Source: Aureococcus anophagefferens (Eukaryota > Sar > Pelagophyceae > Pelagomonadales > Pelagomonadaceae). From it: 64,000 nucleotides of DNA. Position numbers and translations under genes: made by a program. This document shows, piece by piece, positions 11,085 to 48,005 of this stretch (positions within the stretch are counted from its first letter, which is position 1; each line of letters starts with the position of its first letter). Under the pieces are notes generated by a model. The model was not told the DNA's origin and did not search any database. It worked only from the letters and a program-made list of their open reading frames with translations. The DNA is taken from the NCBI RefSeq assembly GCF_000186865.1, contig NW_008705563.1, positions 2,770,003-2,834,002 on the forward strand. The letters run 5' to 3'.

Positions 11085-13181
11085 ATGTCGTCTCGAGGCG
11101 ATATGGGCGGCAGTTGTGGATCACGTGGCGGCCGCGGCGGCCGCGGGAGCGGCCACCGGTCGCAGCACGGCGGCAACAACGGCCACCGCTCGCAGCACGG
11201 CGGCAGGGGCTCCGACCGCGACCGCTCGCCGCGCTCCTTGCGCGGCGCCGCGAGCAGCGGCGGCCGGTCGCGGTCGCCGCGCGACGACGGCAAGCGGCGG
11301 CGCGACGGCGGCGACCGGTCGCCGCGCGACCGCGACCGCGCGCGCGACGACGGCAAGCGCGCGCGCGGCTCCGGCGCCGAGCGGCCCGCGGCGCCGCCGG
11401 CGAAGCCGCAGCAGCGCGGCGCGAAGCGGGGCCGCGGCGGCGAGCCCGCGCCCCCGTCCGTCGCGGACGCGCTCGAGAAGAGCGACGCGGAGATCGGCCG
11501 GCTCGAGGGCGAGCTCGAGGCCCGGACGCGCGCGCACGCGCGGGAGACCGAGGCCGAGGCGGCCGGCAACGAGCGCATCGACGGCGAGCTCGCGGCGTTG
11601 GAGAAGCGGCGCCGCGCGCTCGAGGCGGAGCGGGGCGCGCTCAAGGTGAGGGTCATCGAGGCGGACCGCGACCGCGAGAAGTGCGCGCGCGAGCTCGACG
11701 TCGAGCGGAAGGCGCGCGAGGAGCTCGCGAAACTGCCGCCGCGCGCGCCGAGCCCGCCGCCGCGGAAGCGCGACCGCGCGGACACGGCCCCGCGTCGACG
11801 CGAGCCCCGGGGCCGCGGGGCCGGCCGCCGGCGCGACGCCCGCGGCGCCCGCGGCCGCGCCGCGGCGGGCCGCGTCGACGTCGAAGCGCGCGGCGCCGCG
11901 CGCGGACCGCGTCGTCGAGGCGAGCCGCCGCGGCGGCATGCAGAAGATTCGGGACGTCTTCGTCGAGGGCGACGGGTCCCTGCTGCTCGCGACGATCAAG
12001 GGCGACGTCGGCCGCGTGGCCCGCGACGCGTCGACGGACGACGAGGACGCCGAGGAGTCGCGCGTCGCGTTCGCGCCGGACGTCGCGTGGTTCGACGGCT
12101 GGGAGCCGACGACGTCGACGTCCGTCGCCGCGGCGGCCTACTCCGGGTCCGACGTCGTCCTCGCCTACGGCGACCGGGGCCTGGACGTCGTCGACGCCGC
12201 GACGGGCGCGCGGACCGCGTGCCTCGAAAAATCCTTCCGCAAGGGCGCGTCCGCCGTCGCCTGGCTCCCGGGCGGCGCCGGTTTGGTCGCCGGCGGCCAC
12301 GACCACGAGGTCGTCTTCGCGCGCCACACGGGCGGCGCCTGGCGCTTCGTCCACGCGCTCGGGAGCCCCCACCAGGGCAGGAAAAGAGTGCGAAATTCCC
12401 AACTTCAAAGGCTCCTCTCTCGGCCGTTTTCCACTCGTTTCGGCTGATTTTTGGACGAGCGATGATCTCTCGGAACGGTCTCGAAGCGTGGATGCTTTTC
12501 CCGGAACGCGCGCGCGCGGAACACTCACGTTGAAGCGACGTTGAATCACCCGCTTCCTGCCCAGGCCCCCACACGGCCAAGGTGTCGTGCGTCGGGTGCT
12601 TCGACGACGCGACGGCGCTGAGCGGGGGCGTGGACTGCCGCCTCGCGCTTTATGATTTGCACGAGGGCCGGCAGACCATGGCGCCGGAGCTCTACGGCTC
12701 CTTCAGCGAGCGGCGCCGCAAGTTCCACGCGCTCCGGCGCGTGCCGCGGTCCTCAGACGTCTTGGCCGTCGCGTCGCAGCCCTACGACCTCGTCTCGGAG
12801 GAGAAGTACAAGGTCGACTTCCTCGACAGGCGCTGCCAGCGCGTGTTGCCCGGCCTCGAGGCGTCCGCGGCCAAGTACTCCGAGTTCTGCGAGCCGCGGT
12901 TCTCCGACGACGGCGTCTACGTGTCGCTCGGGTCGTGCGACGGCGCGGTCAAGATCTGGGACCTGCGGCGGCTCCAGGGCAAGGACCGGCCCATGGAGTC
13001 GCACGCTGTCCCCCACGGCGAGGTCCTTGTCGACCGGGCCGCGGTCTCCCACGCGACGCTCCTCCAGCATGGGCCGCGCGGCGTCACCTTCGCCGCCGCG
13101 TGCGCCTCGCGCCTCGTCGTCCGCGCCTGGCGCCCGGAGCCGGCGTCGCCGGCGCCGCGGCCGCGCGCGAAGACGCGGTAA
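11085..13181 (+). CDS. SR/RGG-coiled-coil protein joined to WD40 repeats; contains an introner
   Basis: The N-terminal part from ATG 11085 is Arg/Gly/Ser/Asp-rich (SRGGRGGRGSG, RSPRDDGKRRRD), followed by a charged coiled coil (ALEKSDAEIGRLEGELEA) and a Pro/Arg tail. WD40-type sequence is in another frame from about 11806 (ASTSKRAAPRADRVVEASRRGG, then MQKIRDVFVEGDG at 11938) to TAA 13181. Repeats include AVAWLPGGAGLVAGGHDHEV and ALSGGVDCRLALYDL. A frame change between 11650 and 11938 must be an unmapped short intron or an assembly slip; alternatively the WD40 gene starts alone at ATG 11938. In the WD40 part, removing 12365-12564 joins ALGS to PHTAKVSCVGCF in frame. WD40 domains scaffold complexes; the SR-like N-terminus hints at RNA processing (inference). 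Confidence 0.6.
12373..12564 (-). mobile_element. Introner element copy A (192 bp), acting as a GC-AG intron
   Basis: An element of exactly 192 bp flanked by the 8-bp target-site duplication GCCCCCAC (12365-12372 and 12565-12572). Ends: CAGGGCAGGAAAAGAGTG on the left and CACCCGCTTCCTGCCCAG on the right, an imperfect inverted repeat. The intron is 12365-12564, 200 nt: GC of the left duplication is the donor and the element's terminal CAG is the acceptor. Removal restores the uninterrupted target and the WD40 reading frame (phase 1). Its internal sequence is the reverse complement of copies at 23098 and 46742. It encodes no protein. Confidence 0.9.
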
Positions 13182-13202
13182 GGGCGCTCGAGAAGCGTGC
13201 GC

Positions 13203-14729
13203 TTAGCGGCCCGCGCGCTCGTAGCGGGGCGGGCTCCGGCGGTCGTAGGCGTAGTCGCGGCCCCGGTCGTAGCGGTCGTCGCGGTAGCCGCCGCCGCCCC
13301 GGTCGTCGCCGCGGTAGCCGCCGCCGCGGTCGTCGCCGCGGTAGCCGCCGCCGCGGTCGTCGCCGCGGTAGCCGCCGCCGCGGTCGTCGCGGTAGGGGCC
13401 GCGGTCGTCGCGGTAGGCGCCGCGGTCGTCGCGGTAGGCGCCGCGGTCGTCGCGGTAGGGGCCGCGGTCGTCGCGGCGGTCGTCGCGGCGGTCGTCGTAG
13501 CGGGGGCGCGGCGGCGGCGGTTGCTCGCGCGGCGGGAGGTCGCGGGGCCGGTCGCCGACGGCGCGCCGGAGCCGCTCGTCGAGGTCGCGCGCGTCGACGG
13601 CGCGGCCGCGGTCGCCGCGGTCGTCGCGGTCGCGGTCGCCGACGCGGACGCGGTCGAGGTGGTCGTAGCCGCCGCGGACGGGCCGGTCGTCGCGGTGCCC
13701 GCCGCCGCCGTAGCCGCCCCGGTCGCGGCGGCCCGTCTGGACGTTGGGCCGCGGCGGGGAACGGCCGCTGACGGACGGCCGCGGCGGGCTCCGGGACCGG
13801 CTCCGCGACGACGAGCTCCGGCTCTCGGAGCGGCGCTTGCACATGCCCCAGGCCGTGCCCAGCATCTGGCCGCGGTGGCGCGCCTCGACCTCGGCGCGCC
13901 GCTGCGCCGGGTTCATCTCCGTGCACCGCGCGTCGGACGTGATCGGCGGCGCCTTGCCGCGCTCGTCGCCGCCGCGGCGGAGCGCGGCGAGCGCCGCGGG
14001 CGACGTGATGGACGCGAGGGCCGTGAGCTGCGTCGGGCCGACGACGCCGAGGCCCGCCGTGATCGTCGACGGCAGCTCGCGCTGGAGCGCGTCCGCGGCC
14101 TCGTGGAGCGCCGCGACGCGCTCGATTGTCGACGCGTCGAGCTCCTTGGCCTTGGCGGGGCGCACGGCGATGCGCTGGCCCGCGATGTCCGTGCCGTCCA
14201 TGGCCGCCGCGGCCTCGGCGGCCTCGGCGTCGCGGAACTCGACGAACGCGAACGCGCCGGACCCGTCGACGCGCGCGTCGGTCACGGGCCCGATGCACCC
14301 GAAGATCTCCGCGAGCACGTCCGCCGCGACGCAGCCGCCGAGCTTGCCGACGTAGATGGTCTTCGCCGGGTCGCCGTGGCCCGCGACGTTCGCCTTCGGC
14401 CCGTCGCCGCGGTTCCGCATTCCCCCCCGGCCCGCCTCCTGCTTGAAGCGGCTGATGACGCCGACCATGAACCCGCTCTTGTTCCGGATCTGGAAGAGGT
14501 TCGAATTGAGGAACCGCTCGACGCAGACGAGCGCGCTCTCCTCGGGCATGTTGCAGAGGTCGATGATGAGCTTCGGGTCCAGGTCCGCGGGGCCCAAGGC
14601 GCCCGTCTGCACCATGTCCTTGAGCCGCAGCTGGCAGCAGAGCGGCAGGTGCGACAGGTGGCCGCTCAGCACGGAGCCCGGCACGGGCTGCCGCGTGAAG
14701 ACGCTCGCGGCGCTCGCGCCGCTGCTCAT
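13203..14729 (-). CDS. RRM protein of hnRNP Q type with RS and RGG/YRDDRG tail
   Basis: 508 residues from ATG 14729. Residues about 40-100 (LIIDLCNMPEESALVCVERF, then FQIRNKSGFMVGVISRFKQE) match the acidic helical domain at the N-terminus of hnRNP Q/R-type proteins. KTIYVGKLGG (RNP2) and GAFAFVEFRD (RNP1) at about 125-165 define one RRM. The tail has an SR stretch (SESRSSSSRSRSRSPPRP) and long Asp/Arg/Gly/Tyr repeats with YRDDRG units. The protein should bind RNA and act in splicing or mRNA handling in the nucleus. The repeat DNA at 13260-13500 has units of about 15-24 bp, so copy number may vary between strains. It converges on the WD40 gene. Confidence 0.82.
   Translation of the reverse strand: MSSGASAASVFTRQPVPGSVLSGHLSHLPLCCQLRLKDMVQTGALGPADLDPKLIIDLCNMPEESALVCVERFLNSNLFQIRNKSGFMVGVISRFKQEAGRGGMRNRGDGPKANVAGHGDPAKTIYVGKLGGCVAADVLAEIFGCIGPVTDARVDGSGAFAFVEFRDAEAAEAAAAMDGTDIAGQRIAVRPAKAKELDASTIERVAALHEAADALQRELPSTITAGLGVVGPTQLTALASITSPAALAALRRGGDERGKAPPITSDARCTEMNPAQRRAEVEARHRGQMLGTAWGMCKRRSESRSSSSRSRSRSPPRPSVSGRSPPRPNVQTGRRDRGGYGGGGHRDDRPVRGGYDHLDRVRVGDRDRDDRGDRGRAVDARDLDERLRRAVGDRPRDLPPREQPPPPRPRYDDRRDDRRDDRGPYRDDRGAYRDDRGAYRDDRGPYRDDRGGGYRGDDRGGGYRGDDRGGGYRGDDRGGGGYRDDRYDRGRDYAYDRRSPPRYERAGR
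13260..13500. repeat. Short tandem repeats coding YRDDRG units
   Basis: Tandem 24-, 21- and 18-bp variants of CGGTCGTCGCGGTAG-like sequence on the + strand. They code, in reverse, for the low-complexity tail of the RRM protein. They are protein-coding repeats and have no spacer structure of a CRISPR array. Confidence 0.8.
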
Positions 14730-14906
14730 CGTCGTCGCGCGGGTCGGCGCTTCGGGTGTTTCGCTACCGAGACGCTACAATTGGTGCACCACCATCGTGT
14801 GGTGAAATCAGGCGCTCGCCGACCGAGCCGGCCGAGCTCGATCGAAGCCGGGGGGCGGCCCGTCACCGACAGCGTCGCTGCGAGTGGGCTTCGACGCGTC
14901 GACGCG
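14730..14906. promoter_or_regulatory. Divergent upstream region
   Basis: 177 bp between the RRM gene and the TPR-Aha1 gene starts. It contains an AT-richer patch around 14770-14810 with the imperfect palindrome GGTGCACCACC. No known element recognised. Confidence 0.25.
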
Positions 14907-17045
14907 ATGGCCGACACCGACGACGTGGGCGTCACCGCCTCGGACGCGAAGCCGTGGTACGCGGCGGAGTCGTCCGGCGCCAAGGACGCGCCGCCCGACG
15001 GCCTCGCCGTCGTCGCCGAGGCGCTGGCCTTCAAGGAGACGGGCAACCAGCTCTTGAAGGACGGCGTCTACACGGACGCCGTGTCCGAGTACGCCAAGGG
15101 CATCGACGTGCTCGTCGCCTTCGAGAAGGCGCAGAAGAAGGCCGACGACGCGCTCGTCAAGGACAGCGACGACGACGACGACGACGCCAAAAAGGACGAC
15201 GCGCCGGACCTCGCGGCCGTCGAGCTCCGCGAGGTGCGCGTGTCGCTGCACCTCAACAGCGCCATGGCGCTCCTCAAGCTCGAGCGCTGGGAGGACGCCA
15301 TCGGCAGCGCCGACGGCGCGCTGGCCGTGCAACCCGAGTGCGTCAAGGCGCTCTACCGCCGCGGCTGCGCGCGCGCGAAGCTCCTCCAGATCGAGTCCGC
15401 GGCGTCCGACCTCAAGCGCTGCGTCGAGCTCGAGCCGGGCAACCGCGACGCGAAGCGCGAGCTCGCCAAGCTCACCGCGGGTTTGCGGGAGAAGCGCGCG
15501 GCCGAGAAGAAGCGCTTCGGCGGCGCGCTCAACGCCGGCAAGGGCCTCTACGGCGACAAGGAGGCGGAGAAGGAGAAGAAGAAGCGCGACGAGCAGCTCG
15601 CATCCGCGAAGAAGCGGCGGCGCCACGAGGACGAGAACAAGGAGCGCGAGGCGCGCGGCGAGGACGCCATCTCCTACGCCGACTGGGAGAAGGCCGAGAA
15701 GGCCGAGGAGAAGAAGAAGGAGGACGCGGCGAAGAAGGAGCGGGACCGCGTCCAGAAGCTCCGCGACGAGATGCGCCGCAAGGAGCGCGCCGAGCGCGGC
15801 GACGACCGCGTCGTCGTCGACGACGAATTGGACCTCAAGTCGTGCAAGGGCTACAAGACGCTGCCCAACGGCCGGCGCACGTCCTACTTCACGAACGTGC
15901 CCGACGCGACGACGGCGGACCTGCTCAAGCAGGAGCAGGCGCCGAAGAAGATCGACTCGAGCGACGCGCTCGAGCGCGTGAATTCGGACGGGTCCGCGTG
16001 GAACGCCGCGGGCACGACGTTCGAGGAGCGCGACATGAAGAGCTGGTGCGACGACGCGCTCAAGAAGCACCTCAAGACCGCCGCGGCGAACGTCGACGGC
16101 TGCGCCCTCCTCGTCACGGCCGTGAAGAACTGCAAGGGCGAGGCGTCGATCGTCGTCTCGCGCGGCCGCGCGCGCCACGTCTTCGAGTACGCGGCGGACC
16201 TGGCCTTCGAGGCGTCCTTCCCCGCCGAGCCCTTGCCGGGGCCCGGCCCCGTGACCGTCAAGGGCACGATCCACCTCCCCGAGATCTCGTCGACCGTCAA
16301 CGACGGCAACTACGACTCCACCGTCAGCCGGAAGCCGACCTCGGCGAAGCTCAGCCGACCACGGGCCGACGCCCTCGACGCGGGCATCGCGAAGCTCCAG
16401 GACATGGCGAACCGCGCCATCGGCGACTTCGTCGCCGAGTACCAGGCGAAGAAGCTCGACGCGGAACGGCCCGCGCCCTTTAACATTTGCACCGCATACG
16501 CGTTCGCTCGGGCACTAGCTTCCGGGCACCGCATCTTCTTATGTTCCCCCCGCGCGCGAGCCGCTCATCGGTGGCTCGGGCGGCTCGACTTTGATCACCG
16601 GCGCACCAGATGCTTTCTTCGGCACTTTCTTCGGCGGCGCTTCTCCTTCGGTGCGCGCCCTCTTCATCGGTGGTTCATGAGACTCAACTTCGATGACCTG
16701 GCCGGATGCTCGGGCCTCCTCGAGCCGAGTGGTCGCCGCCTCTGCGGCGCTGCGGCTCCCGAGCACGCGCGGCTCGTCGTCGGCTTCTCGCGCTCGCTCG
16801 GCTTCTCTCCGCCGCTCGGCGCCGAGGACGCGAGCGACTACGACGCTCTCACCGAAGTTCTTGACGGCGACGACGGATGGAACGCCATCAACGCGCTCCT
16901 CGGCCAAGGCTTCAGCTCGATCCAGCTCGTCCTCTCTCTGCCGCTCGGCCTCCAAAACTTCTTCTTGCTGCCGCTCGGCCTCCAAGGCGGCTGCGTCTCG
17001 CTCCCGCCGGATCTCCAACGCTTCATCATCCGCGCTCTCCAGTAA
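14907..17045 (+). CDS. TPR co-chaperone with Aha1-type domain; 3' end doubtful
   Basis: From ATG 14907 (MADTDDVGVTASDAKPW). Residues about 35-190 form TPR repeats (FKETGNQLLKDGVYTDAVSE, VSLHLNSAMALLKLERWEDA, VKALYRRGCARAKLLQIESA), with an acidic insert. A long Lys/Glu coiled coil follows (about 190-310). WNAAGTTFEERDMKSWCDDA at about 365 starts an Aha1-type N-terminal domain, which in its family binds Hsp90 and stimulates its ATPase. TPR domains dock on the Hsp90/Hsp70 tail, so this should be a cytosolic Hsp90 co-chaperone. The uninterrupted frame ends at 17045, but beyond about 16490 it loses protein character and runs antisense to the gene at 16539-17153. The true end is probably near 16490 through an unseen splice or a base error. 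Confidence 0.72.
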   Translation: MADTDDVGVTASDAKPWYAAESSGAKDAPPDGLAVVAEALAFKETGNQLLKDGVYTDAVSEYAKGIDVLVAFEKAQKKADDALVKDSDDDDDDAKKDDAPDLAAVELREVRVSLHLNSAMALLKLERWEDAIGSADGALAVQPECVKALYRRGCARAKLLQIESAASDLKRCVELEPGNRDAKRELAKLTAGLREKRAAEKKRFGGALNAGKGLYGDKEAEKEKKKRDEQLASAKKRRRHEDENKEREARGEDAISYADWEKAEKAEEKKKEDAAKKERDRVQKLRDEMRRKERAERGDDRVVVDDELDLKSCKGYKTLPNGRRTSYFTNVPDATTADLLKQEQAPKKIDSSDALERVNSDGSAWNAAGTTFEERDMKSWCDDALKKHLKTAAANVDGCALLVTAVKNCKGEASIVVSRGRARHVFEYAADLAFEASFPAEPLPGPGPVTVKGTIHLPEISSTVNDGNYDSTVSRKPTSAKLSRPRADALDAGIAKLQDMANRAIGDFVAEYQAKKLDAERPAPFNICTAYAFARALASGHRIFLCSPRARAAHRWLGRLDFDHRRTRCFLRHFLRRRFSFGARPLHRWFMRLNFDDLAGCSGLLEPSGRRLCGAAAPEHARLVVGFSRSLGFSPPLGAEDASDYDALTEVLDGDDGWNAINALLGQGFSSIQLVLSLPLGLQNFFLLPLGLQGGCVSLPPDLQRFIIRALQ

Positions 17046-17153: not shown

Positions 17154-17353
17154 CTTGTCAATCGCTTGGGTCGAGCGTCCCAGCCCGCCTCCACGAGCGC
17201 CTCCAGCGCTCCGGCGGCAGCCCCGTCAAAGGTTTGCGATGCTCAAATCATGCACCTCTGAGTTTCGGACGTCCACGCATCATCCAAATTACCACAGATA
17301 GAAGACGCCATCCACGCGTCGCCGCAGCCCGTAGCGAGCCAGCACAGCACACC

Positions 17354-21819: not shown

Positions 21820-22021
21820 ACCACCCCCCCGAGGCTGTTTCGCGCGCGTCGCGTGCGTAAATTTCGATGGAAAAATGGTTCAACATCGGCATGTTACTAC
21901 TGTGGCAAAATCGATCGTGATGGGAGGCCCATCGTAAGCGTGGCCGCGCCGCTGGTGATCGGTGTACGGCACCGTGGAGGAGCTCGAGCCGTGCACCGTC
22001 TGCGGTGCCGTCGCGCCTCGG

Positions 22022-25000
22022 ATGGTCGACATCGAGGTCGTCGACGCCGGCGCGCCGCCCTGGCCGCTCGTGCCCGACCCGGCGTGGACGAGCACGGTGG
22101 CGCCGAGCCTGCCGTTCCTCCAGTGGCACGAGCACGTGGCGCTGCGGCTCGTGGGCATGACGACGCTCGAGATGCCCGCGTCGCCGTTCTTCTCCCTCTT
22201 CCTGCGCACGGGCGGCGGCCACGCGAAGCGGTACAACGCCGCCCGCGGCATCACGAAATACGACGAGGGCGACTGGCGGGACGACCGCGCCGCGGCGGGC
22301 AAGGTGCGGCGCGTCACCTACGAGGTCGACGTCGTCGACGACGCGTCGCGGTCGCGGCGCGTCGCCGTCCACGAGACGCAAAGCATCGTGCCGACGGCCG
22401 ACGGCTACGTCTACGAGGCGCGGACCGTGGAGGCCGGCTGCGAGGCCGTCGCGCGCGCGGCGGCGCCGGCGGCGCCGACGTCGCCCTACGGCCGGCGGTC
22501 CGACGGCGGGCCGGCCTACTACACCGCGGAGCGCTGGGTCGTCGCGGAGCAGCGGGGCCTGCTGCGCGCGCACGCCAAGGTCAGCGTCTACGCCGCCGCG
22601 CCGCCGTCGCCCGACGGGCCCGGCGGCGGCTGGACCGACGAGGCCCACCGGCGCTTCGACGCCTGGCACGCCGTCGCGACGCGCGAGACCTACGCGAACG
22701 CCGTCGGCGCGATGGTGAGCGACTCCGTCTTCGGCACGGCCGTCGGCGGCGGCGAGAAGCGGAAGCAGGGAGACGCCGAGCCGCGGCCCTTCGTCGCGCC
22801 CGTGCCGCCGAGCCGCGTCGACTTCATGACCCAGCTCGAGGAGCCGCCACTCGTCCGCGAGCGCGCGCCCGCGACGGGCCCGGCGGACGAGCCGTCGCCG
22901 CGCGCGCGCGGGGTTTCGACCGTCGTCTGCGTCGACGTCGAGGAGGTCGAGGCGCGCGGCGACGCGGCGAAACCGGCGAAGAAGAGCGGCCTCGGCTGCG
23001 GCGAGGCGCCCTGGGCGGCCGGCGCCGTGCCCGTCCTGGAGAAGGCGGCGACGCCGTCGAAGCGCGCGTCGTGGCTCGGGGGCTACGCGGCATCGCTCAG
23101 GGCAGGAAAAGGGTGATTCAACGTCGCTTCAACGTGAGTGTTCCGCGCGCGCGCGTTTCGGAAACAGCACCCACGCTTCGAGAGCGCTCCGAGAGATGAT
23201 CGCTCGTCCAAAAATCAGCCGAAACGAGCGGAAAACGACCGAGATAGGAGCCTTTGAAGTTGGGAATTTCGCACCCTTTTCCTGCCCAGGCGTCGCTCCT
23301 GTCGCCGAAGCGCGCGTCCGGCTCGACCTACGAGATCGTCTTTGATGGTGTTGTGGGCCTCCAGTTCGCCGATTTAGGAACAGGCGCCCTCGTCGACGGC
23401 CACGAGGGCTACGGAGCGGCCGACGCCCCTCCTGGGGTCGGATCGGCGCTCACGTCCGTCAACGGCGTCCGCGTGGGCGGCCTCACCTTCCAGAGCGCCA
23501 TGGCCCTCGCGGGCCAGCGCAAGCGGCCGCTCGCGCTGGGCTTCCTCGAGGCGACGCCCGACGCGCTCGTCGACACGTTACTCGTGGAGCGCGCGGCCGG
23601 CGGCTGCGATGCTCGCGCCGTCGACGCCGCGCTCGCGGCGCCCGGGGCCAAGGACCTGCGGGCCCAGCTCGACGCCTTCGTGGCCAACTTCAACGCCGCG
23701 GACCTGCGCCGGTGCGCCTACGTCGGCGGCGACCAGCGGCCCGGGGCCATGTTCCGACGGGCCGTCGACTTCGCCGTCGACCAGCTCCGGGAGAAGCGGC
23801 TCCTCGCGAGCGGGTCCCCCCAACCCCAGCAGAACAAGACGGCGGCGCTGCGCGTGAGCCGGCGCGACGACGACGCCGAGGAGCGCGACGACGCGTACTG
23901 GGCGTCGTGCCGGAAAGTCGTCGAAACGCGGCTCGCGGCGCGCGTCGCCGACGCCGCGTGGGGCCTCTCGCCCGAGGCCGGCGCCGGCGACGACGAGCTG
24001 CGCGTCCACTTCCACTCGCTGCGGTTCCTACGGCTGGAGCACCTCGGCGTCGTCGTCCCCGCGGGGAAGGCGCGGGGCCAGACGTCGGCGCCGGGGCGGG
24101 AAAAGAACGCGACATGCCCAACTTCACAGGCTCCTCTCTCGGCCGTGTTCCACTCGTTTCGGCTGATTTTTGGACGAGCGATCATCCCTCGGGACGGTCT
24201 CGACGCGTGCATGCGTTCTCCGGAACGCGCGCGCGCGGATCGCTCACGTTGAAGCGACGTCGAATCACTCGTTTCCCGCCCAGGTCGGCGCCCGAAGACG
24301 GCGCGGAGTGGCGCGTCGCGCAGCTCGAGGTCGAGGCCGCCTGCGCCGCGAGGACCGCCGGCGACGCCGTGGACCGCTTCGCGACGGCCGTGCGCTTCAT
24401 CGCGTCCGCCGTCGAGGCCTGCAGCAACCGGGGGAGGACGCTCCAGTGCTACTCGGCGATCGGCGCGGACGAGCTGCTCCCGGCCATCACCTGGACGCTC
24501 ATCCAGGCCGACGCGCGGACGCTGGCGTCGACGCTCTGGTTCGTCGACGAGTTCGCGGGGGCCGACGACCTCCGGGGGGAGCGGGGCTACGCGTTCGCGA
24601 ACGTCCAGGCGGCGTCCGACTTCGCGCGGAAGACTCTGACGTCCGCGGCGCCCCTCGAGGGTCTGATCGCCCCCGACGCCTTCGACCAGGGCGTGCGGCG
24701 GGCCGTGCTCACGGACGAGGCCGTCGCCGCGGCGACGCGCGGCGACGGCTCGAAGCTCGGGCTGGTTCTAGCCGCGGGCGCGGACCCGCTCGGTCTGGGC
24801 TCCGGCCTCGACGCGACGCCCCTGTCCGCGGCCATCGTCTCGCGGGACCGCGACGCCATCGCGAAATGTTTGGGGCGGCTGTCCATCGAGGGCGCGTCGA
24901 ACGGCGCCGACGACCGCGTGGAGTTGGAGTGCCACGACGTCGACAACGCTCGGCCGTCCGACGGCGCGACGGCCCTGATGGTCGCGGCGTCCGTGGGCGA

Positions 25001-27311
25001 TCTAGACGTCGTATTAGCGCTCCTCGCCCTGGGCGCCGACGGCAACCGGCGCGCCGACGCGACGGGGCGCACGGCCGCGCGGCGCGCGCGCGACGGCGGG
25101 CACGACGCCGTGGCGGAGGTCCTGGCCTGCGCGGCGCCGACGCCGGCGGCGCTGCTCCGGGCCTGCGCCGTCGGCGACGCGGCGGCCGTGCGCGGGCTGC
25201 TTCTACGGGGCGCGGACCCGGCGGCGAAGGTCGGGGGCTGCCCGCCGCTCGTCGCGGCCGCGGCCGCGGGGAGCGGCGCGTGCGTCGCCGCCCTGCTCGC
25301 CGCGGACGGCGTCGACGTCGACGCGACCTGCGCCAAGGGGTCGACGGCGCTCATGCGCTGCGTGGGCTTCGACGAGCGCTGCGCGGCCAGGCACGGCGCG
25401 CCCGCCGCGGCGCCGGCGAAGCAGGCCGCCGCGGCGATCGCGCTCCTGAGGAAGGGCGCGGACCGCGGCCTCCAGGACCGCTTCGGCAAGTCGGCCCTGA
25501 CCTGGTGCCGCACCCAGGGCGGGTCCAAGGCCCTCGAGTCGGTGCTGCGCAACGACCCGGCGAAGAAGAAATTGTGCGAGGCCTGCCGCGACAAGCGGCC
25601 CGACGACGCGCGCGCGTTGCTCCTCCAGGGCGCGGACGCGGACGCGCCCTGCGAGGCCAAGGGCTACACGCCCCTCGTGGCCGCGGTCTACAACGACGAC
25701 GTCGCCATGGCGACGATCCTGCTCGACCCGCCCGTCGAGCCCGACGGGTCGCGGGCGTTCGCGGCCGCGGCCGTCGACGGCCGCGGCCGCGGCGGCCTGA
25801 CGCCCCTCATGTACGCGGCGCAGCGGCGGAGCGCCGCGACGTCGAGCCTCCTGCTCCGCTTCGGCGCCGCGCGGGACGCCGTCGACGACCGGGGCCGGTC
25901 GCCGCGGGACCACGCGGCGTCCGGCAACTGGCCCGCGGGCTCCGAGGCCGCGAAAGCCGAGCTGCTCGAGCTGCTCTCCACGGACCCGCGCAAATTGCTC
26001 CTCGTGGAGGCGGCGGCGCGCGACGACGCCGCCAAGGTTTTGGCGCTCCTGGGCCACGGCGTGTCGCCGAACGAGTGCCGCCGGCTCCGGTCCGCGCGGC
26101 GCGCGCCGCCGCGCGCGCCCCCGCGCGGCGGCCGGCCCCCGGCCAAGGCGCCGCCGCCGCTGCCCTGCTGGCACCTCGAGCTCTGCACGCCGCTCATGGC
26201 CGCCTGCTGCTACGACGCGGCCGCGGCCGCGCGCGCGCTCCTCCGGAGCGGCGGCTGCCGCGTCGACCTCGCGAACCCGCTGGGCCTCACGGCGCTCCAC
26301 TACGCTGCTTTACGCGGCCGCGCGTCGACGATATTGTTGCTGCTGGAGTGCGGCGCGGACCGGACGCTCGCGGACCGCGCGGGCCGGACGCCGCTCGACT
26401 GGGCGGAGCGGCGCGCGGCGATGGACAGCGCCGCGTTCCGCCGCGCGGACCGCGCGCCGGACGAGCCGGCGTCCTTCGAGGCGGCCCTCACGACCACGGG
26501 CGGCGTGGACCGCGCCGACGAGCTCGCGGTCCACGTGCTCCGCTACTCGCCCGAGACGCACGGCGCGACGGCGCTCGCCGCGGACGGCGACGACCGCGGC
26601 GTCGTGGCCCTCGTCATGCAGGGCGTCGACGTCAATGGCTTCGACGACGGCGGCGCGACGCCCCTCATCGCCGCCTGCGGCCACGGCAGGCTAAACGTCG
26701 TGCGGCGGCTCCTCGCGCACCGCGACGTCGCCGTGGACCTCGCGGGCAAGCGGGGCGTGACGCCGCTCATGCACGCGGCGGCGGCGGGCTTTGACGACGG
26801 CGTGCTCGCGTTGCTGCGCAAGGGCGCGGACCGGCGAAAACGGACGGACCAGGGCCGCCGCGCGGCGGACTACGCCGCGGAGCACGGCCACGTCGCGCTA
26901 GGGGCGCTCCTCGAGGCGGACCCGGACGTCGTGTCCGTGCACGACGTCGCGACGGAGGGCAGGCTGCTCGCCCTCGACGGCCTCATCCGCCAGCGGCCCG
27001 ACCTGCTGAACGCGCGCGACGCCGCGCGCGGCGACGCGCCGCTGCTCCTCGCCGCGAAGCACAGGAAGCTGAAGGCCGTCGAGCTCCTGCTCGCCAAGGA
27101 CAAGGTCAAGGTCGACTGCCCGAACGCGAACCGCGAGACGCCGCTCATGCACGCGGCCAAGGCCGGCGCGCTCGACATCTGCTCGCGGCTCCTGGCCAAG
27201 GGCGCGGACCCGAACGCCAAGGACGCGGACGGCCGCACGGCGACGTCCTGGGCGTCGTCGAAGTCCTACGCCAACATGATGCTCTACATGGGCGTCGCCG
27301 CCCTGTCCTAA
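22022..27311 (+). CDS. VPS9-domain protein with PDZ and ankyrin repeats; two introners
   Basis: Exons 22022-23089, 23290-24083 and 24284-27311 give 1629 residues. The first ATG in frame is 22022; the frame is open from 21959, so an upstream exon is possible. The N-terminal region (RVTYEVDVVDD, ETQSIVPTADGYVYE, YTAERWVVAEQRG) resembles a VASt/StART-like fold, weakly. After intron 1, IVFDGVVGLQFADLG, VNGVRVGGLTFQSAMALA form a PDZ domain. After intron 2, LQCYSAIGADELLPAITWTL, LASTLWFVDEFAG and GYAFANVQAASDFARKTL match VPS9, the guanine-nucleotide exchange domain for Rab5-type GTPases in endosome traffic. About fifteen ankyrin repeats follow to the C-terminus (TPLMHAAKAGALDICSRLLA). A Rab5-family exchange factor on endosomes is inferred. 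Confidence 0.82.
23098..23289 (+). mobile_element. Introner element copy B (192 bp), GC-AG intron
   Basis: Flanked by GCATCGCT (23090-23097) and GCGTCGCT (23290-23297), an 8-bp target duplication with one mismatch. The intron is 23090-23289, 200 nt, phase 0, donor GC from the left copy, acceptor CAG. Inverted ends GGCAGGAAAAGGGTG and CACCCTTTTCCTGCC are perfect complements over 15 bases. The mismatch lies in the copy that becomes intron, where drift is free. Confidence 0.92.
24092..24283 (-). mobile_element. Introner element copy C (192 bp), GT-AG intron
   Basis: Flanked by perfect 8-bp copies of GTCGGCGC (24084-24091 and 24284-24291). The intron is 24084-24283, 200 nt, phase 2, donor GT from the duplication, acceptor CAG. 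Ends GGCGGGAAA and TTTCCCGCC are complementary but differ from copies A and B. Internal sequence has the orientation of copy A and is the most diverged of the four. Confidence 0.92.
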
Positions 27312-32003: not shown

Positions 32004-35000
32004 TTACGACGGCGCCGCGCCGGCGAGGTCCTCCTCCGGCACGATGGACGCGTAGTGGGACTCGGCCCAGAAGGCGAGCCAGATGGTGGGCGGCGCGGTC
32101 GGCGGCGTCCGGTGCTGCGGCGTCGCCGCCGGCGGCGGCGGCGGCGGCGTCGATTCCAAAGCACTCACGACGTGGGCGACCTCCTCGTCGAATTCCCGAG
32201 ACCCCAGCGACCGCGGCGGCGGCGCGTTCGGAATGGGCGGCGCGTCCGGCCGCGGCGCCTCCAGCCGCGCGCGCGGCTCGACGCGGAAGATGCCGCGCTC
32301 GGCGTAGGACGTCACGAGGCACACGACGACGCCGTAGACGTCCGCGGCGGCCTGGAGCGTCACGGCGTCGCCCCATTCCCCGTCGTCGGCCATGCGGCGC
32401 ACGAAGCTCTCGAAGTCGGCGTCTTCCGCGTCCTCGACCATGCAGAACTCGGCGTACCGCTCGGGCTCGAGGGCGAGCTGGCCGACGACGCGCTTCCGGA
32501 CGGCGTCGTGGCGCTCGTCGTTGCCGCAGAGCTGGTGGGCGATGGCGCGGAACTGGCAGTTGCCGTCCCCGGCGACGGCGTGCTCTCGGAGCCCGAAATC
32601 CCGCAGGCGGTCGCGCAGCCTCCGGCGCTCGACGCCGAGGTTCTCGCTCCCGCCGCTGGAGCACCGGCTCAGGGTCGAGCGGGAGGAATCCCCGTGCAGC
32701 AGTTCCGCGGACTCAAGCACGCGCTTCAGGACCGTCGAGCGCTCGTAGGTCCGCATCGGCCGGACGTGGGCGTCGCCCTCCAAGAGCGGCACGTGGTCCC
32801 ACGGGCCTTTGGTGCGCGGCCGCGGCGTCGAGGCGTCGAGGCTCGTCACGATGTCTTTGAAGCTCGGCCGGACCGACGCGTCGTGCGCCCAGCAGGCGGT
32901 CATGCGCGCGCGCATGTCCCGCGGAATCGACGGCGGCACCTCCGGCCGCAGCCGCTGGACGACGACCTTGGCGATGATTTGGGGCGGCGAGAGACCCTCC
33001 CACGGAAATCCCCGCGTCCAGATCTCGTAGAGCACCATGGCGTAGGAGTAGACGTCACACTTCTGGTGGAACATGGCGCCGTCGAGGTACTCCGGCGCCA
33101 TGAACGCGGGCGTGCCGCAGAGTCCGGCCGTCGCGCGCGTCGCCGCGAGGTCGTCGCACTTGCTCAGGCCGAAGTCGCAGACTTTCCCGCGGCCGTCGTG
33201 GGTCAGGAGGCAGTTGAGGCTCTTGAGGTCCCGATGCTCGATGCGCGACTTGTAGAGGTAGGCCATGCCGCGCGCGACGTCCGCGGACCAGACGCGCTGG
33301 CGCTCCGCGTCGACGGCGCCCTCGGCGTCGAGCGCGTCCCGCAGCGAGCCGCCCGGCAGGTATTCGAGGACGAGCCCGAGGTACGACGGGTCGGTCGTCA
33401 CGACGCCTAAAACGAGGACGATCCGCGGCGACCGGAGCCGGACCATGATCGCGAGCTCCCTGGAGAACTGGGAGAACATCCGCTGGCGGTCCGCCGCGCT
33501 CATGCCGAGTTGCGACATTTTCTTCAGGCAGACCGCCTCGCCCTGGTACTCGGCGAGATGCACGGTGCCCTGGCCGCCTCGCGCGAACGGCTCGTCCTCG
33601 ACGTGGCGCAGCTCGACCTCGAATTCGGCGATGGTGCAGCTCGGCGCCCGCAGGCCCGCGCCGTAGGATTCGATGTCCTTCGTCTCCTCCGTCTTGAGGA
33701 TCTCCAGCGCTGTCGCCTCATCCTCGAATGCCTCTTGCTTCTCGGCGTCTCTTCGTCGCCTCACGACGACGAGCGCGACGACTGCAAAGAACAAACACGC
33801 TGCCGCGGCGGCACCGCCGCCAATGGTCGCCGCGTCCATATCTCCGCTCGAAGAGCTCGTCCCGGATTCCGGCGCCTCTTCCGATTCTCCCGCGAGTGAC
33901 TCGAGCGACATTTCCGGCTCTGGCGACGAAGGCACGGACGTTGGCGTCAGCGTCGGCGTTGGCGAGACCGTTGGCGTCGGCGTTACTTTGAAGGTCGGCC
34001 GCGGCGTCACCGGTGAAACGCTCGGGGTCCGCGTGGGCATTGCCGTCGGCCTCGGCGTCGGCGTGGGCGACGGTCCGGGCGTCGGCTCGAGCGTCGGCTC
34101 GGGTCGCTTCGGCGTGGGTTCCGCGATTGGATCTGGCGTCTCCGAGACGGGCTCCAGCGAAGGCGTCGGCGTCGGTTTTGGCGTCGGATCGGGGCTTGGC
34201 TCGAGCGAAGGCCCCGGCGTTGGTGCCGATGAGGGCTCGGGCGTCTCGATCGTTGGACCTGGGGTCGGCTCGGGCGAAGGCTCCGGCGTTGGTGCCGATG
34301 AGGGCTCGGGCGTCTCGATCGTTGGACCTGGGGTCGGCTCGGGCGACGTCGGTTCTGGCGTCGGTTCCGGTTCCGTAAAGTATGCGAGGTACGTCTCGTA
34401 GTAGGAGTCGCCGCTGAAGACGACGACGACCGCGACGCGTCCATCGCCGGTCGCGTGGATCGCCGTACCCTCGGGGTCGCCGCCATCTTCCGGGCTCAGC
34501 GCCACGAGATCGGCGCTGTCGGCGTAGTAGTCCCAGTCGTAGACCGCGGCGCCCGTGTCCGTCGCGCTCATTCGCAGCGTCGTACCGTCGACGGACCAGA
34601 GGCAGTCCCGAGCGGGGTCGTAGGCCGCTTGCGCGGCCGAATCCTCGGGCAGCCACCGCCCGTCGGTGTCGTCGGCGTGCAGTAGAACGCCGTCGGCCGC
34701 GTCCACGCGCGCGTAAAAGTACTTGGAGACGAGCAAGACCTCGCTCGCCGCAGAGTCGCCTGACGCGCGGCGCAGGTGGAGCTGCGGCGTCCCCTCGTCG
34801 AGACCGAGGCTCGTCGTCCACGTGCTGTTGAGGCTATCCTCGAAGATGTCGACGCGTGCCAAGGCCCGGGCGCCGCCGTCGTCGAGGGTGCCCGCCACAT
34901 AGATCGCGGCCCGGGCCGGGTCCAGAATCATCTTTTTCCCCGCCAGGTCGCCCAGGTCCAAGCGGTCCACCTCCTCGAGAGATCCAGCGCCGTCGGACGC

Positions 35001-40123: not shown

Positions 40124-40157
<34 letters not shown>

Positions 40158-42734: not shown

Positions 42735-42921
42735 AGCTCAACTACGCGTGCATGCACTCAGCCGAGCGCTGTGGAGATCGTGCCGGCGAGCGTCGACCTC
42801 AACACCAAGGAGCTGCCCCGTTGACCGGTCGGCGCTCGTGCGGGGCAGCTCCCGGTATGGCGTCGTGAACAGCCCCCGTTCCCCTGGTGCACCGTCGGCG
42901 CCGACTCGTCGCGGCCGCCGC

Positions 42922-44610
42922 ATGGCGTCCGGCGTCATGATGCGCATCAACGCGACGGTGGAGTACGGCGTCCAGCGGCGGCGCATCGTCGTGCCCTGCG
43001 GCGACGGCCGCAAGTCCGTCAAGTGGCTCGGCCTCGTCGCCGCCCAGCGCTTCATCATGGACGCGGCGGCCAGGGGCAAGACGCGATTGCGGGACCGGCG
43101 CAGCGTCGCGCCGGCGGCGACGCAGCTCATCCCGAGCGGCGTGCGCACGGCCGACGAGCCCTTCTTCCACCCGGCCGCGCTCCTCTGCGACGTCTTCGAG
43201 GACGGCGCGGAGGTCGCCGTCGCCCTGGAGCCCAAGGTCGCCGTGGGCGCGTCCGGGCGGCCCCTGCGGAGCAACTGGGCCGTCGTCGCGTTCTCGACGG
43301 CGCCCGCGTCGGAGCCCGCGCGGCGCGCGGCGCTCGAGGACGAGTACCGGAAAAGGGAGGCGCGCCTGGCCAAGATGAAGCGGGAAACGAAGGAAAAGCA
43401 GGAGCTGGACAACTACGAGAAGGGCAGCGCCATGCGCAAGATGATCGGGCCCCAGTTGCTCCAGATGGAGAACCTCGACCCCGCCGTCGACGGCGCGTGG
43501 GCGGAGATGAACCGCCAGGGCCTCATGGACCAGTTCATCCGGAACCCGCGGGACCAGGACAAGGTGCGAAGAATCCTGCGGGACCATTTCCTGGAGTTGT
43601 CGGAGCTCTTCAAGTTCTACAGCGCGGGCACGCAGAATCTGGCGGACGCGCACCAGCTCGAGTTCAGCGAGTTCTGCGCCTTCGCGCGCGACGTCGGCGT
43701 CTTCGGCCCGGGCGGCTTCGCGGACCACGCGCTGCTCAACGTGTGCTTCGCCGAGGCCTGCGAGATCCCGCCGCAGCAGGTCAAGGGCGGCCACATGGAG
43801 CTCTACCAGTTCCTGACGTCGCTCATCTGGCTCGCGCAGGTCGCGCAGCAGGCGACGGCCGAGGCGTCCAAGGCCAAGAAGGGCGCGCTCGCGCTCATCG
43901 CGGGCGGCGGCCACGAGCGCAAAAAGAGCATGATCACGCGGCAAGGCGTCGCGAAGCACGGCTTCATGTCGACGGCGGAGATGCTCCGGACCTTCGTCGA
44001 CACGCGCGTCGCGCTGGCTCTGAAGAAGCAGGCGACGCAACTGATCGGCATCGTCACGAAGGAGTGCCTCAACACGGACGCGGTGCTCGCGCGCTTCTAC
44101 GAGCACCACGACGCACTGTTGGGCGTCTATATGACGTACCTGCCCTCGAAGCCGCCGGGCAAGGCCGAGAAGATGGACCTGCTCGAGGGCTACATGACCA
44201 TGGCCGAATTCCAGGTCCTCATCGAGGACTCGACGCTCCTCCGGTCCCAGGGCGACGACGACGAGCTCACGCTCAAGGAGGTGCGCCAGGCCTTCGCGGG
44301 CGCCCAGACGGACATCGACCTCGACTCGGGGGACCTCGCGCCGAAGAAGGCGCCGAAGCGCAAGGACGCGCCGAAGGGCAACCTCAGCTCCGCGCAGCTC
44401 ATGTCCTACGCGGAGTTCCTCGAGGCCGTGCTGCGCCTCGCCATGCTCAAGTGGGAGGCCGACGAGCACGACGCGGACGCCGTCACCGAGAAGTGCGCGA
44501 CGGCCATCGACATGATCCTCAAGCACAGCCACAACAACAACGAGAAGCGCGCGCGCCGCGGCACGCGCGCGGGCCTCCAGCGCGGCGCGTCGAACTTCAA
44601 CCGCGGGTAG
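42922..44610 (+). CDS. Conserved-looking protein of unknown function
   Basis: 562 residues from ATG 42922; the frame extends to 42748 but through a GTG start and basic non-protein-like sequence. The first 170 residues are beta-like (NATVEYGVQRRRIVVPCGDG). A long central helical part (LEDEYRKREARLAKMKRETK, DQFIRNPRDQDKVRRILRDH, FSEFCAFARDVGVFGPGGF) contains repeats of about 180 residues that recall EF-hand-like pairs without full calcium loops. The C-terminal half repeats a similar plan (MAEFQVLIEDSTLLRS, LTLKEVRQAFAGAQTDIDLD, SYAEFLEAVLRLAMLKWE). This plan recalls large cytoskeletal or flagellar proteins, but I cannot assign one. It is intronless. Confidence 0.6.
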   Translation: MASGVMMRINATVEYGVQRRRIVVPCGDGRKSVKWLGLVAAQRFIMDAAARGKTRLRDRRSVAPAATQLIPSGVRTADEPFFHPAALLCDVFEDGAEVAVALEPKVAVGASGRPLRSNWAVVAFSTAPASEPARRAALEDEYRKREARLAKMKRETKEKQELDNYEKGSAMRKMIGPQLLQMENLDPAVDGAWAEMNRQGLMDQFIRNPRDQDKVRRILRDHFLELSELFKFYSAGTQNLADAHQLEFSEFCAFARDVGVFGPGGFADHALLNVCFAEACEIPPQQVKGGHMELYQFLTSLIWLAQVAQQATAEASKAKKGALALIAGGGHERKKSMITRQGVAKHGFMSTAEMLRTFVDTRVALALKKQATQLIGIVTKECLNTDAVLARFYEHHDALLGVYMTYLPSKPPGKAEKMDLLEGYMTMAEFQVLIEDSTLLRSQGDDDELTLKEVRQAFAGAQTDIDLDSGDLAPKKAPKRKDAPKGNLSSAQLMSYAEFLEAVLRLAMLKWEADEHDADAVTEKCATAIDMILKHSHNNNEKRARRGTRAGLQRGASNFNRG

Positions 44611-44623
44611 GACAGGTTTCTCG

Positions 44624-46003
44624 CTAATTACAGACAATGGAGTTCGCGTCCCCGGGCCCGCAGACGGAGGACGCGTTGCACCAGTCGTACTCGTCGAGGC
44701 TCCCGGGCGCGAACGTCGCGTAGTCGAACATGCCGCCGTACTCGATCGCCAGGGACCCGATGCCCGACGCCCAGATGGAGCCCTCGGCGGCCATGCCCAA
44801 TGCTTGCACGTGGGCGTGCCACTCGGCGCCCGTGGCGTCGAGCGTCGCCACCATGGCGTCCAACGCCCAGCCGTTCGGCAAATCGAATTTCACGTGATCA
44901 TCCAGCACGCGCGACCAGCCCGTGCCGGCGCCCATGAGCGCGGCCCGCGTCGACGCGACGTCGGCCTCGTAGGCCGCGACGCCGTAGGCCAGCGCGTCGT
45001 CGCGCGCCTCGACGAGGGACAACCGAACCATGGGCGCGTCGTCCGTGCTCAGGCTCTCGCAGTCGATGGTCACCTCCGTGGACAGGTAGGCGCACGCGTC
45101 GCTCGTCGCGACGTCGACGTCGCCCCAGGGCAGGCTCGTCCAGGCGTCGGCGAAGTAGGCGTTCGCCGCGGAGACGTCGCTCGTCGGCGCGGAGACCTTG
45201 AACAGGAGCGGCGCGACGAGGGCGCCCGGGGACGTCTCCTGGGTCGCGTTGAGCGCGCGCCACCACGCGAGCATCTGCTTCGCCGACCGCGCGGGGCCGA
45301 AGGCCGGCTCGCAGGCCCGCGCGTCGTCCGCGAGCGGCGAGAACTCCGGCAGGAGCCGTTCGTCGACGTGCGGGCCGTGGACCTCCCAGACGCGGCCCGT
45401 CGCCGCATCGACGCGCACGACGGCGTACATGGGCTCGCCGTCGACGCCGGAGTAGGACCGGAGCGCCGCGTCGCCGCCGAGGCGCGCGTGCGCGGACACG
45501 TCGGGGACCCAGAAGCCCGTGGACGAGAAGAGGTAGGGATCCCAGGCGCTCAGGTTGCTGAGCACGGGGTGGAGCCCATTCCAGTAGTCGACCCAGCTCG
45601 CCACCCAGGCGTGGCCCGGGAGCGACACGTTCGATCGGATCATGTGGTAGGCCACGGACGGGCCCGACGAGAGCGTCGCCCGGTCCATGCAGCACGCCTT
45701 ATCCCGGCCGCAGCCGCTCGCCACGGCGCCGTCGATGGACGAGAAGTTCTTGGATGTGACGTCCACGAAATCCGTGCTGTCGAGCGTGATGCCGACGTAG
45801 TTCTTTAAAAAGTGGCCCGAGGCGTAGGGGTCCGTGGAAAAGAGCGTGCGCTTGTTGAGGCACATGCGCTTCTCGGAATCCATGGACGGCCCGTCGAGCG
45901 CGACGAACGTCGCCGCGTCGCGCGACCGCGACGCCAGGCCGGCGAAGAGCGCCACGGCGCAGACGCTGGCGACGGCCAGGCGAATCGTCGGGCTGCCCAT
46001 CAT
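44624..46003 (-). CDS. Secreted or signal-anchored protein of unknown function
   Basis: 459 residues from ATG 46003 (second ATG directly after). MMGSPTIRLAVASVCAVALF is a signal anchor. The rest is lumenal in character: several N-glycosylation sequons (NFS, NVS, NLS, NAT, NAS), Cys pairs (CGRDKACCMD), and aromatic blocks (AWVASWVDYWNGLHPVLSNL). An acidic C-terminus ends CNASSVCGPGDANSIVCN. I see no catalytic motif. It converges on the unknown gene at 42922, with 13 bp between stops. Confidence 0.6.
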   Translation of the reverse strand: MMGSPTIRLAVASVCAVALFAGLASRSRDAATFVALDGPSMDSEKRMCLNKRTLFSTDPYASGHFLKNYVGITLDSTDFVDVTSKNFSSIDGAVASGCGRDKACCMDRATLSSGPSVAYHMIRSNVSLPGHAWVASWVDYWNGLHPVLSNLSAWDPYLFSSTGFWVPDVSAHARLGGDAALRSYSGVDGEPMYAVVRVDAATGRVWEVHGPHVDERLLPEFSPLADDARACEPAFGPARSAKQMLAWWRALNATQETSPGALVAPLLFKVSAPTSDVSAANAYFADAWTSLPWGDVDVATSDACAYLSTEVTIDCESLSTDDAPMVRLSLVEARDDALAYGVAAYEADVASTRAALMGAGTGWSRVLDDHVKFDLPNGWALDAMVATLDATGAEWHAHVQALGMAAEGSIWASGIGSLAIEYGGMFDYATFAPGSLDEYDWCNASSVCGPGDANSIVCN

Positions 46004-46089
46004 GTTGTCACTCAACCCGGTGCTTGCACGAACTCTTGGAGCTCCGAGGGTGCACCAGAAGGTGCTGCTGTTACCGAGGCTCTCACGAG

Positions 46090-48005
46090 ATGGGGGATGC
46101 CATGCCGCCCTCTCCAGAAGCGTCGACGACGCGCTTCGAGGACGTCGACCTCGCATCTACAGAGTACCTGCGCGGGTCGTCGCCCATGGCCGACGTCGAG
46201 TCGCCGCTGAGCAAGACGGAGCCCGCGGGCACGAGCCACGTGCGCGGCCTGTCGTCGGTGACGGGGCTGCCCCTGGGCGAGTGTGCGACGGCGCCGAGCA
46301 AGCCGAAGACGCCGAAGAAATCGAAGGCGCACGTCAAGGCCGCCTGGGTCGGCCGGCGCACGCTCGCCGCCGGCTTCTTCCCCTTCAAGCCGGAGGAAAA
46401 CGACCGCGCCGGCGGCGCGCGGTCGTCGCTCGCGGAGTTCCAGGCGCGGCGGGCGACGCAGGTCCGCGCGGCCGCGCACGCCCGGGTGCCCCGGGGCGCC
46501 CACAGCGCCGCCTGGGGGGACCGGGCCTGGGCGGGCCTGCCGGCCGTGCTCGACGGCTTCGCGACGCCGAGAGTCCCGCTGTGGCACGCGGCCGCGCACG
46601 ACCCGGGCCCGGACGTCGTCCGCGACGCCAAGGTGCGCCTGCTGGACCCGGAGGGCACGCGCCACGGCGCCGTCGGCCGGCGCGTGCGCGCGCTCCAGCT
46701 CGCGCGCGCGCGCCTCGCGCGCCTCGGCTTCTGGTCCGACCTCGGGCAGCAAAAGGGTGATTCAACGTCGCTTCAACGTGAGTGTTCCGCGCGCGCGCGT
46801 TTCGGAAACAGCACCCACGCTTCGAGAGCGCTCCGTGAGATGATCGCTCGTCCAAAAATCAGCCGAAACGAGCGGAAAACGGCCGAGATCGGAGCCTTTG
46901 AAGTTGGGAATTTCGCACCCTTTTGCTGCCCAGGTCCGACCTCGCGGTCGTCGAGGAGCAGCTCGCGGCCGCGAGCGCGGCGCTGGACGCGCGCTGCGCG
47001 GCGGAGATCGAGGAGGACCACGCCTGCCGCGTCGCGGCGCTCGAGGAGAAGCAGGCCGCGCGGCGGAAGTTGCACGCGGCGCGCGTCGCGCGCGCGGAGC
47101 TCCGGCGGACGCAGACGGCCGCGATCATCGCGGAGCAGCGCAAGAACGCCGAGGCGCTCGCCGTCATCAACGACATCCCGCTCTTGAAGCCGAGCGCCGA
47201 GCTCGAGAAGAACGAGCTCGCGGAGCTCCTCGAGGTGAAGCCCTTCGCGGACGGCGCTCTCATCATCCAGGAGGGCGAGGTCGCGGCGCCGCCGGAGCTC
47301 ATCATCGTGGCCAGGGGGTCCGTCGACGTGCTCACGGCGTCCATGGCCGTCGTCGCGAGCCTGGACGCGCCCTTCTACGTCGGCGAGGGGCGCCTCATCA
47401 CTGGCGAGGCCGCGTCGGCGTCCGTCCGCGCGCGCGGGCCCGTCGAGGCCCTCATCCTCAGCGCGACGAACTTCCGCATGCTGGCGAACTCGCCGAACAT
47501 GCGCTACATGATCCCCATGATGAAGCGCGAGATCGAGATCCGCAACTTCGAGCGCGCGTCGAAGCAGCGCGGCGGCAGCCTGTGGAACCAGCTCAAGCGC
47601 GACGCGCGCTTCATCCGCCACGTGAAGACGCACGCGTCGTCGCTCCAGCTCGACATCCACGTCGCCTTCTACCAGGCCGTGGAGCACTACCGGAGCGTGT
47701 CCGGCAGCGACGACGTCCTCGAGCGCAACGCCGCGGCCAAGGCGACGACGCGCCTCGTCGACAACGCGGACCACCTCCTCTGCGCGACGCCCCAGGAGAA
47801 GCACGCCATGCTCCACACGCTCGAGTCCATCCGCGGCACGAAGGACGCGCCCCACGCCGCCTTCGACAGCCTCAAGAAGGACTCGGAGCGCGTCATCGAG
47901 GACACGATCATGGCGTCCTTCAAGGGCTGCGGCGCCTACCGCCGCTTCGTCGAGGAGGTCTTCCCCGTCGTCCCCGTCACGCCCACGGGGCGCGACTCGT
48001 ACTGA
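46090..48005 (+). CDS. Cyclic-nucleotide-binding plus RGS-like protein; contains an introner
   Basis: Exons 46090-46733 and 46934-48005 give 571 residues from ATG 46090 (MGDAMPPSPEASTTRFEDVD). The N-terminal third is disordered with a WD/basic segment. After the intron a coiled coil (VVEEQLAAASAALDARCAAE) leads to LLEVKPFADGALIIQEGEVA, PPELIIVARGSVDVLTA and SVRARGPVEALILSATNFRM, a cyclic-nucleotide-binding-type beta roll; the phosphate-binding Arg motif is not obvious. The C-terminal part (RFIRHVKTHASSLQLDIHVA, FYQAVEHYRS, HAAFDSLKKDSERVIEDTIM, ASFKGCGAYRRF) matches an RGS helix bundle, which speeds GTP hydrolysis on G-alpha. It probably links a second messenger or crippled ligand site to G-protein control. 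Confidence 0.75.
46742..46933 (+). mobile_element. Introner element copy D (192 bp), GT-AG intron
   Basis: Flanked by perfect 8-bp copies GTCCGACC (46734-46741 and 46934-46941). The intron is 46734-46933, 200 nt, phase 2. Ends GGCAGCAAAAGGGTG and CACCCTTTTGCTGCC are perfect complements, with C/G at the sixth position where copy B has G/C. The interior differs from copy B at only a handful of bases and has the same orientation. Confidence 0.92.

Follow-up and report, generated by a model that had tools for sequence, protein, structure and literature searches.

Introner elements of Aureococcus anophagefferens carrying a putative splice acceptor at one of two nearly identical ends

The 64,000-nucleotide stretch of Aureococcus anophagefferens DNA analyzed here, termed the window (contig NW_008705563.1, positions 2,770,003 to 2,834,002), contains four copies of a 192-bp sequence, each of which is very probably an introner element, a short DNA transposon that has no transposase of its own and makes an intron where it lands. 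In the proposed mechanism a transposase made elsewhere would insert the element at a staggered target cut of 8 bp, as the flanking duplications suggest, and the target 8-mer would be duplicated because of that stagger. The terminal repeat at the downstream end would bring a pyrimidine-rich stretch and the CAG of the 3' splice site, the donor would be only the GC or GT that opens the duplicated 8-mer, and splicing out the left 8-mer together with the element (200 nt) would restore the original exon. The splicing itself is predicted from the sequence. The copies and their flanking duplications are as follows.

12365-12372, + strand: left 8-bp duplication of copy 1, GCCCCCAC, a perfect match to the right one; holds the GC donor of the predicted intron
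12373-12564, + strand: copy 1, 192 bp, orientation F, ends CAGGG...CCCAG; predicted intron 12365-12564
12565-12572, + strand: right 8-bp duplication of copy 1, opening the downstream exon
23090-23097, + strand: left 8-bp duplication of copy 2, GCATCGCT; holds the GC donor
23098-23289, + strand: copy 2, 192 bp, orientation R, ends CAGGG...CCCAG; predicted intron 23090-23289
23290-23297, + strand: right duplication of copy 2, GCGTCGCT, one mismatch to the left one
24084-24091, + strand: left 8-bp duplication of copy 3, GTCGGCGC, perfect; holds the GT donor
24092-24283, + strand: copy 3, 192 bp, orientation F, ends CGGGG...CCCAG; predicted intron 24084-24283
24284-24291, + strand: right 8-bp duplication of copy 3
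46734-46741, + strand: left 8-bp duplication of copy 4, GTCCGACC, perfect; holds the GT donor
46742-46933, + strand: copy 4, 192 bp, orientation R, ends TCGGG...CCCAG; predicted intron 46734-46933
46934-46941, + strand: right 8-bp duplication of copy 4

All four copies lie where the original prediction, made from the letters of the window, had placed them (12373, 23098, 24092 and 46742), with the 8-bp duplications it described. The predicted introns run from GC (copies 1 and 2) or GT (copies 3 and 4) to AG, which corrects the earlier account in that two of the four donors are GC and not GT. On the host strand the 5' end consists of the 8-mer followed by CAGGGCAGG (variants CGGGGCGGG in copy 3 and TCGGGCAGC in copy 4), and at the 3' end the middle of the element is followed by CTGCCCAG or CCGCCCAG and then by the 8-mer. 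In the window copies the repetition stops at the 8-mer, and a longer duplication that would take in the adjoining CA and AG was therefore rejected. The internal orientation is F in copies 1 and 3 and R in copies 2 and 4; positions 12372-12562 and 23100-23290 are 93% complementary over 191 nt, copies 1 and 2 being opposite inside. Copy 3 is the most diverged of the four.

The copies are found in three open regions.

11650-13181, + strand: host gene of copy 1, encoding a WD40 protein
21959-27311, + strand: host gene of copies 2 and 3, with a VPS9 domain
45859-48005, + strand: host gene of copy 4, with a cyclic-nucleotide-binding domain

Removal of 200 nt (left 8-mer plus element) joins the open frames in phases 1, 0, 2 and 2 for copies 1 to 4, as had been predicted, with 238+204, 377+320, 278+1008 and 291+356 open codons on either side of the join; the phases of copies 2 and 3, which share one gene, are consistent. 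In a Pfam scan of the joined frames the WD40, VPS9 and cyclic-nucleotide-binding domains each score above the Pfam cut-off. The first two bear out the flanking domains named in the original prediction, the third had been missed by it, and the PDZ domain it also named has no match in the joined frames at E <= 1e-3.

The element is widespread in the genome, which was searched as 49 Mb in 86 contigs; an excerpt of PMC11237714 gives 49.9 Mb and 70.5% GC for a published strain. The 14-base end pattern has 2,962 genome matches compared with 17 for a backwards control, and the matches are not chance. Strict two-ended patterns identify at least 1,230 elements, comprising 1,029 with the asymmetric ends CAG...CCCAG, 195 with CG or CC at the 5' end and six with CTG...CCCAG, that is with CTG at both ends (the 12 CTG rows of the end table are these six elements read from both strands). 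All of these counts are lower bounds because the end patterns allow zero mismatch in their specified bases. Copies were sampled non-randomly, with 30 loci taken as the closest in sequence to copy 1 and another 30 as the first ends along one contig (C1); the remainder comprise the six CTG/CTG elements, 20 regions picked for R copies and eight picked for unpaired ends. Seven of the unpaired ends were fetched at full length and gave six introners and one chance coding match.

Among the 80 sampled asymmetric copies the 8-bp duplication is perfect in 66 and has at most one mismatch in 74, and the left 8-mer begins with GC (49) or GT (30) in 79, dinucleotides that together make up 20% of those in exons. 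The element is 192 bp long in 73; the length, identical in the four window copies, is close to constant across the sample but not entirely so. By a codon-position test, which compares GC content by codon position in the 240 bases on each side of a copy, 47 of 51 copies have coding sequence on the sense strand of the intron on either side, and the two flanks share a reading frame when the 200 nt are taken out; phases 0, 1 and 2 account for 17, 16 and 14 of these copies. The two outcomes that the original prediction had named as speaking against it, copies without 8-bp duplications and copies mostly outside genes, were looked for in the sampled copies, and neither was seen. Many similar copies occupy different positions in unrelated genes, as introners do, and their status as introns rests on the frames. 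The test covers 51 of 52 asymmetric rows after a 207-bp pattern match at window position 42841 was dropped, this match being taken as the one unclassed row outside the 80-copy sample; it is a chance match, its 8-mers unmatched and its frames failing to join.

Public proteins bear on the joins at individual copies. Proteins nearly identical to the host gene products are annotated as Aureococcus anophagefferens, and relatives with 53-60% identity align without gaps across the joins of copy 1 (P0010), copy 2 (P0008) and copy 4 (P0002); no relative aligned across the copy 3 join was found. The protein P0003 is 98% identical over 644 residues to the product of the gene with copies 2 and 3. It runs unspliced through copy 3, seems to be the product of a gene call without splicing, and is continuous at the copy 2 site, where the unspliced window frame stops after eight codons. 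Since it is unspliced through copy 3 and yet unbroken at the copy 2 site, its source population most likely carries copy 3 and not copy 2, and P0003 would thus represent at the protein level an allele without the insertion, of the kind the original prediction had suggested looking for. Of four public A. anophagefferens gene models over copy 3, three use the AG of the element, and the sole public model that covers copy 4 takes it too, with another donor. In the public models P0001, P0004, P0005, P0006 and P0007 the introner donors are misplaced or varied, and conserved coding sequence is dropped or added; mis-annotation of introners that use a GC donor may be widespread.

The two ends of the element are nearly identical, and their difference is concentrated at one base. 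On the gene strand the pattern is fixed, with CCCAG at the end facing the downstream exon and almost never its mirror CTGGG at the end facing the upstream exon. Both internal orientations are common, with R in 30 of the first 100 CAG...CCCAG elements listed (a hand count), so that the acceptor, which lies on one end per element, is on opposite ends in F and R, and these are mirror versions. In both, the non-acceptor end keeps CAGGG (or CGGGG), the acceptor end lying on opposite sides of the middle. Because the acceptor is on one end only, the element would make an intron in one orientation only. In the 80 sampled copies the two ends agree at position 9 in 73 and at position 11 in 70, and at position 2 in none. 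The acceptor A is altered in none beside 1,029 intact: the genome-wide two-ended patterns find zero elements with G or C in its place and zero in which both ends read CAG. At the 5' end the corresponding base is altered in 201 of 1,230 (195 G or C, six T), and the G/C changes differ between this end and the acceptor with a Fisher p of 1e-55. Among the 195, C makes up 12 of the first 100 listed by hand count and therefore about 23 in all. The A-to-G change at this base is present in about 14% of copies, as extrapolated from the hand count, compared with about 1% elsewhere, and the CGGGG end may be a second mobile form. The asymmetry acts as an internal control, since of two nearly identical ends one would act as acceptor, and the constancy of that acceptor relative to the other end gauges selection on the splice site without transcripts.

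A tree of 80 inner sequences requires seven changes of orientation label (bootstrap 6-9), two of them forced by well-supported branches, and suggests that the acceptor end has likely switched repeatedly; a single clade for R has an approximately unbiased (AU) test p of 0.078 on the same tree and is not rejected. Orientation shares in the tree sample are meaningless because the sampling was non-random.

Why only one end carries the acceptor has two candidate explanations. The first comes near to an even chance and is that transposition needs at least one CAGGG end, doubly changed elements being immobile. It is in keeping with the agreement of the two ends at positions other than position 2, with the existence of a sister element that has CAGGG at both ends (described below), and with the scarcity of CTG/CTG elements, six compared with 1,029 asymmetric ones, among which two have an extra base and one lies between converging coding flanks. 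Against it are the 195 copies in which that base is G or C, although such changes may have arisen later, and the frequency of A-to-T there, which is about the same as elsewhere in the element (6 of 1,230, about 0.5%, versus 15 of 3,030 cells), so that the six may themselves be later mutations. Of the CTG/CTG elements, L061 (C4:1761191-1761392) is 202 bp long with coding flanks that both run toward it, and is probably outside coding sequence; in L065 and L066 the left 8-mer is shifted by one base relative to the right one, matching a one-base frame shift, with the extra base at the 5' end.

The second explanation, which appears rather unlikely, is that ends which match perfectly would pair with each other and hide the acceptor AG inside a hairpin, splicing demanding the mismatch. 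In predicted RNA folds the acceptor A is unpaired with a mean probability of 0.90-0.98 in the 73 copies of the CAG and CGG classes and of 0.0 in four CTG copies. However, window copy 4 also folds with its AG paired (unpaired probability 0.01), the CTG copies may be spliced, and T at the 5' second base is not below the general A-to-T rate and is only modestly low relative to C (about 23 of 195). With a mutation spectrum that lacks clear avoidance of T, and copy 4 as a counter-example, splicing as the only cause of the asymmetry was set aside.

Only two plain sister elements were found in the genome by sequence and by end pattern, and these may indicate how the introner arose.

C1:618576-619054: plain sister L053, 479 bp, introner end pattern with CAGGG at both ends; no 8-bp duplication
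C32:77547-78048: plain sister L088, 502 bp, introner end pattern with CAGGG at both ends; perfect 8-bp duplication CGCGCGAC

Both look like ordinary transposons of the introner end family, and their CAGGG/CAGGG ends suggest that the acceptor arose when A changed to T at the second base of one end. It is put forward tentatively that this single change, which places AG on the opposite strand, turned a plain CAGGG...CCCTG transposon into one that makes introns; that this arose or switched more than once; that exactly one changed end has been kept since a second would impair transposition or hide the acceptor; and that the donor needs only GC or GT. The plain sister thus hints how small a change may make a transposon an intron maker.

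Terminal inverted repeats, a target duplication and no transposase gene, for which 192 bp leaves no room, are the features of a miniature inverted-repeat transposable element. The hAT and P superfamilies of transposons have an 8-bp duplication and ends that start with CA(G). The introners share the 8-bp duplication of hAT elements, a length common to other superfamilies too; they differ in that one end is CTGGG, and no hAT or P transposase has been tied to these ends, the class of the mobilizing enzyme being inferred. The hAT domains PF05699 and PF14372 have no match in the genome at E <= 1e-3, and control genomes are without a match either. A broken P-type transposase match (PF21787, E 1.4e-9, three internal TAG) is present at C25:178372-178818 in a region with a lower GC content than the window, and introner ends are absent from the approximately 2.4 kb of readable sequence around it. 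Longer relatives that bear a transposase would be recognized by the following end sequence.

CAGGGCAGSAMAAG: expected at both ends

Several observations weigh against the introner interpretation. The mobilizing transposase was not found in the hAT and P domain searches of the genome, the left 8-mer of one sampled copy (L093) begins with CG, four of the 51 copies do not fully agree in the codon-position test (three in frame only, one in neither respect), none of the five public models at copies 3 and 4 uses the donor inside the duplication, and at copy 3 another frame is open without any removal. Given this alternative, and since long open frames are cheap at the window's GC content of 72%, open frames alone are weak evidence; the case for the predicted joins is carried by the relatives and by the test of GC content by codon position.

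Two of these observations would also suit plain insertions that are not exactly removed, the genes being broken, read through or spliced at other sites, as the public models pick varied donors and copy 3 can be read through in the alternative frame. This is highly improbable given the left 8-mers that start with GC or GT in 79 of 80 copies, the acceptor AG that never varies among the 1,029 CAG-ended copies, in contrast to the equivalent base at the other end, and the flanks in frame after the 200-nt removal. Spread as RNA, by reverse splicing of an excised intron into a different transcript followed by copying back to DNA, is scarcely credible: nearly all sampled copies are sense-oriented in coding sequence and the element boundaries coincide with splice sites, but the left 8-mer, a part of the intron, is specific to each site and equal to the right 8-mer, so that the copied unit is the 192-bp element and not the intron. 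The inverted terminal repeats are in keeping with DNA transposition, as is the occurrence of both internal orientations.

For an introner that carries only the acceptor, the predicted donor consists solely of GC or GT. At six further positions, 78 copies have on average 1.55 matches to the usual donor consensus, compared with 1.54 for 8,089 GC or GT sites in the same exons (p 0.48). GT is somewhat preferred over GC (29 of 78 versus 22%, p 0.004). At positions 7-8 of the 8-mer, which splicing does not have to recognize, RC occurs in 32 of 78 copies versus 22% expected (p 1.5e-4, uncorrected for 19 offsets), a weak hint of a palindromic target preference, weak because GY is enriched at the same positions too (28 of 78, p 0.001) and GC counts as both RC and GY. 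A donor with no signal beyond GC or GT raises the question of how this spliceosome recognizes the 5' site.

Introner elements of A. anophagefferens were reportedly described by Huff, Zilberman and Roy in 2016 (Nature 538:533). Their presence in pelagophytes, as stated in the original prediction, is already published for this species, and the introner finding is a correct rediscovery of what was known. A literature search by title and opening of the abstract, with Huff et al. 2016 outside it, returned nothing on the end asymmetry, for which no priority is claimed. Excerpts of later papers (PMC7789003, PMC9481584, PMC10228655) describe the A. anophagefferens introners as having constant-length direct and terminal inverted repeats and a co-opted splice site, with a length of about 210 bp. 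The elements here resemble them in species, in constant-length repeats, in length (about 210 versus 200 bp) and in having one carried and one co-opted splice site; no difference is apparent in these descriptions, on which the likeness is based. The Family 4 introners of Aureococcus sp. MAG TARA_AOS_82_MAG_00129, as excerpted from Gozashti et al. 2022 (PMC9860276), are from the same genus and share the 8-bp target duplication, but carry both splice sites and add 12 bp to the transcript, whereas the element here carries one and leaves the frame unchanged. The Amoebophrya introners, in the portion of PMC7789003 consulted, likewise have direct and inverted repeats at the intron ends, and a hairpin joining the ends is proposed there; they differ in their many non-canonical splice motifs and direct repeats of 3-5 nt, compared with GC/GT-AG and 8 bp here.

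Other repeats are present in the coding-rich sequence of the window, at 7474-8118 with 57-bp units near 7671-8037 and at 34182-34346 with 69-bp units near 34198-34346.

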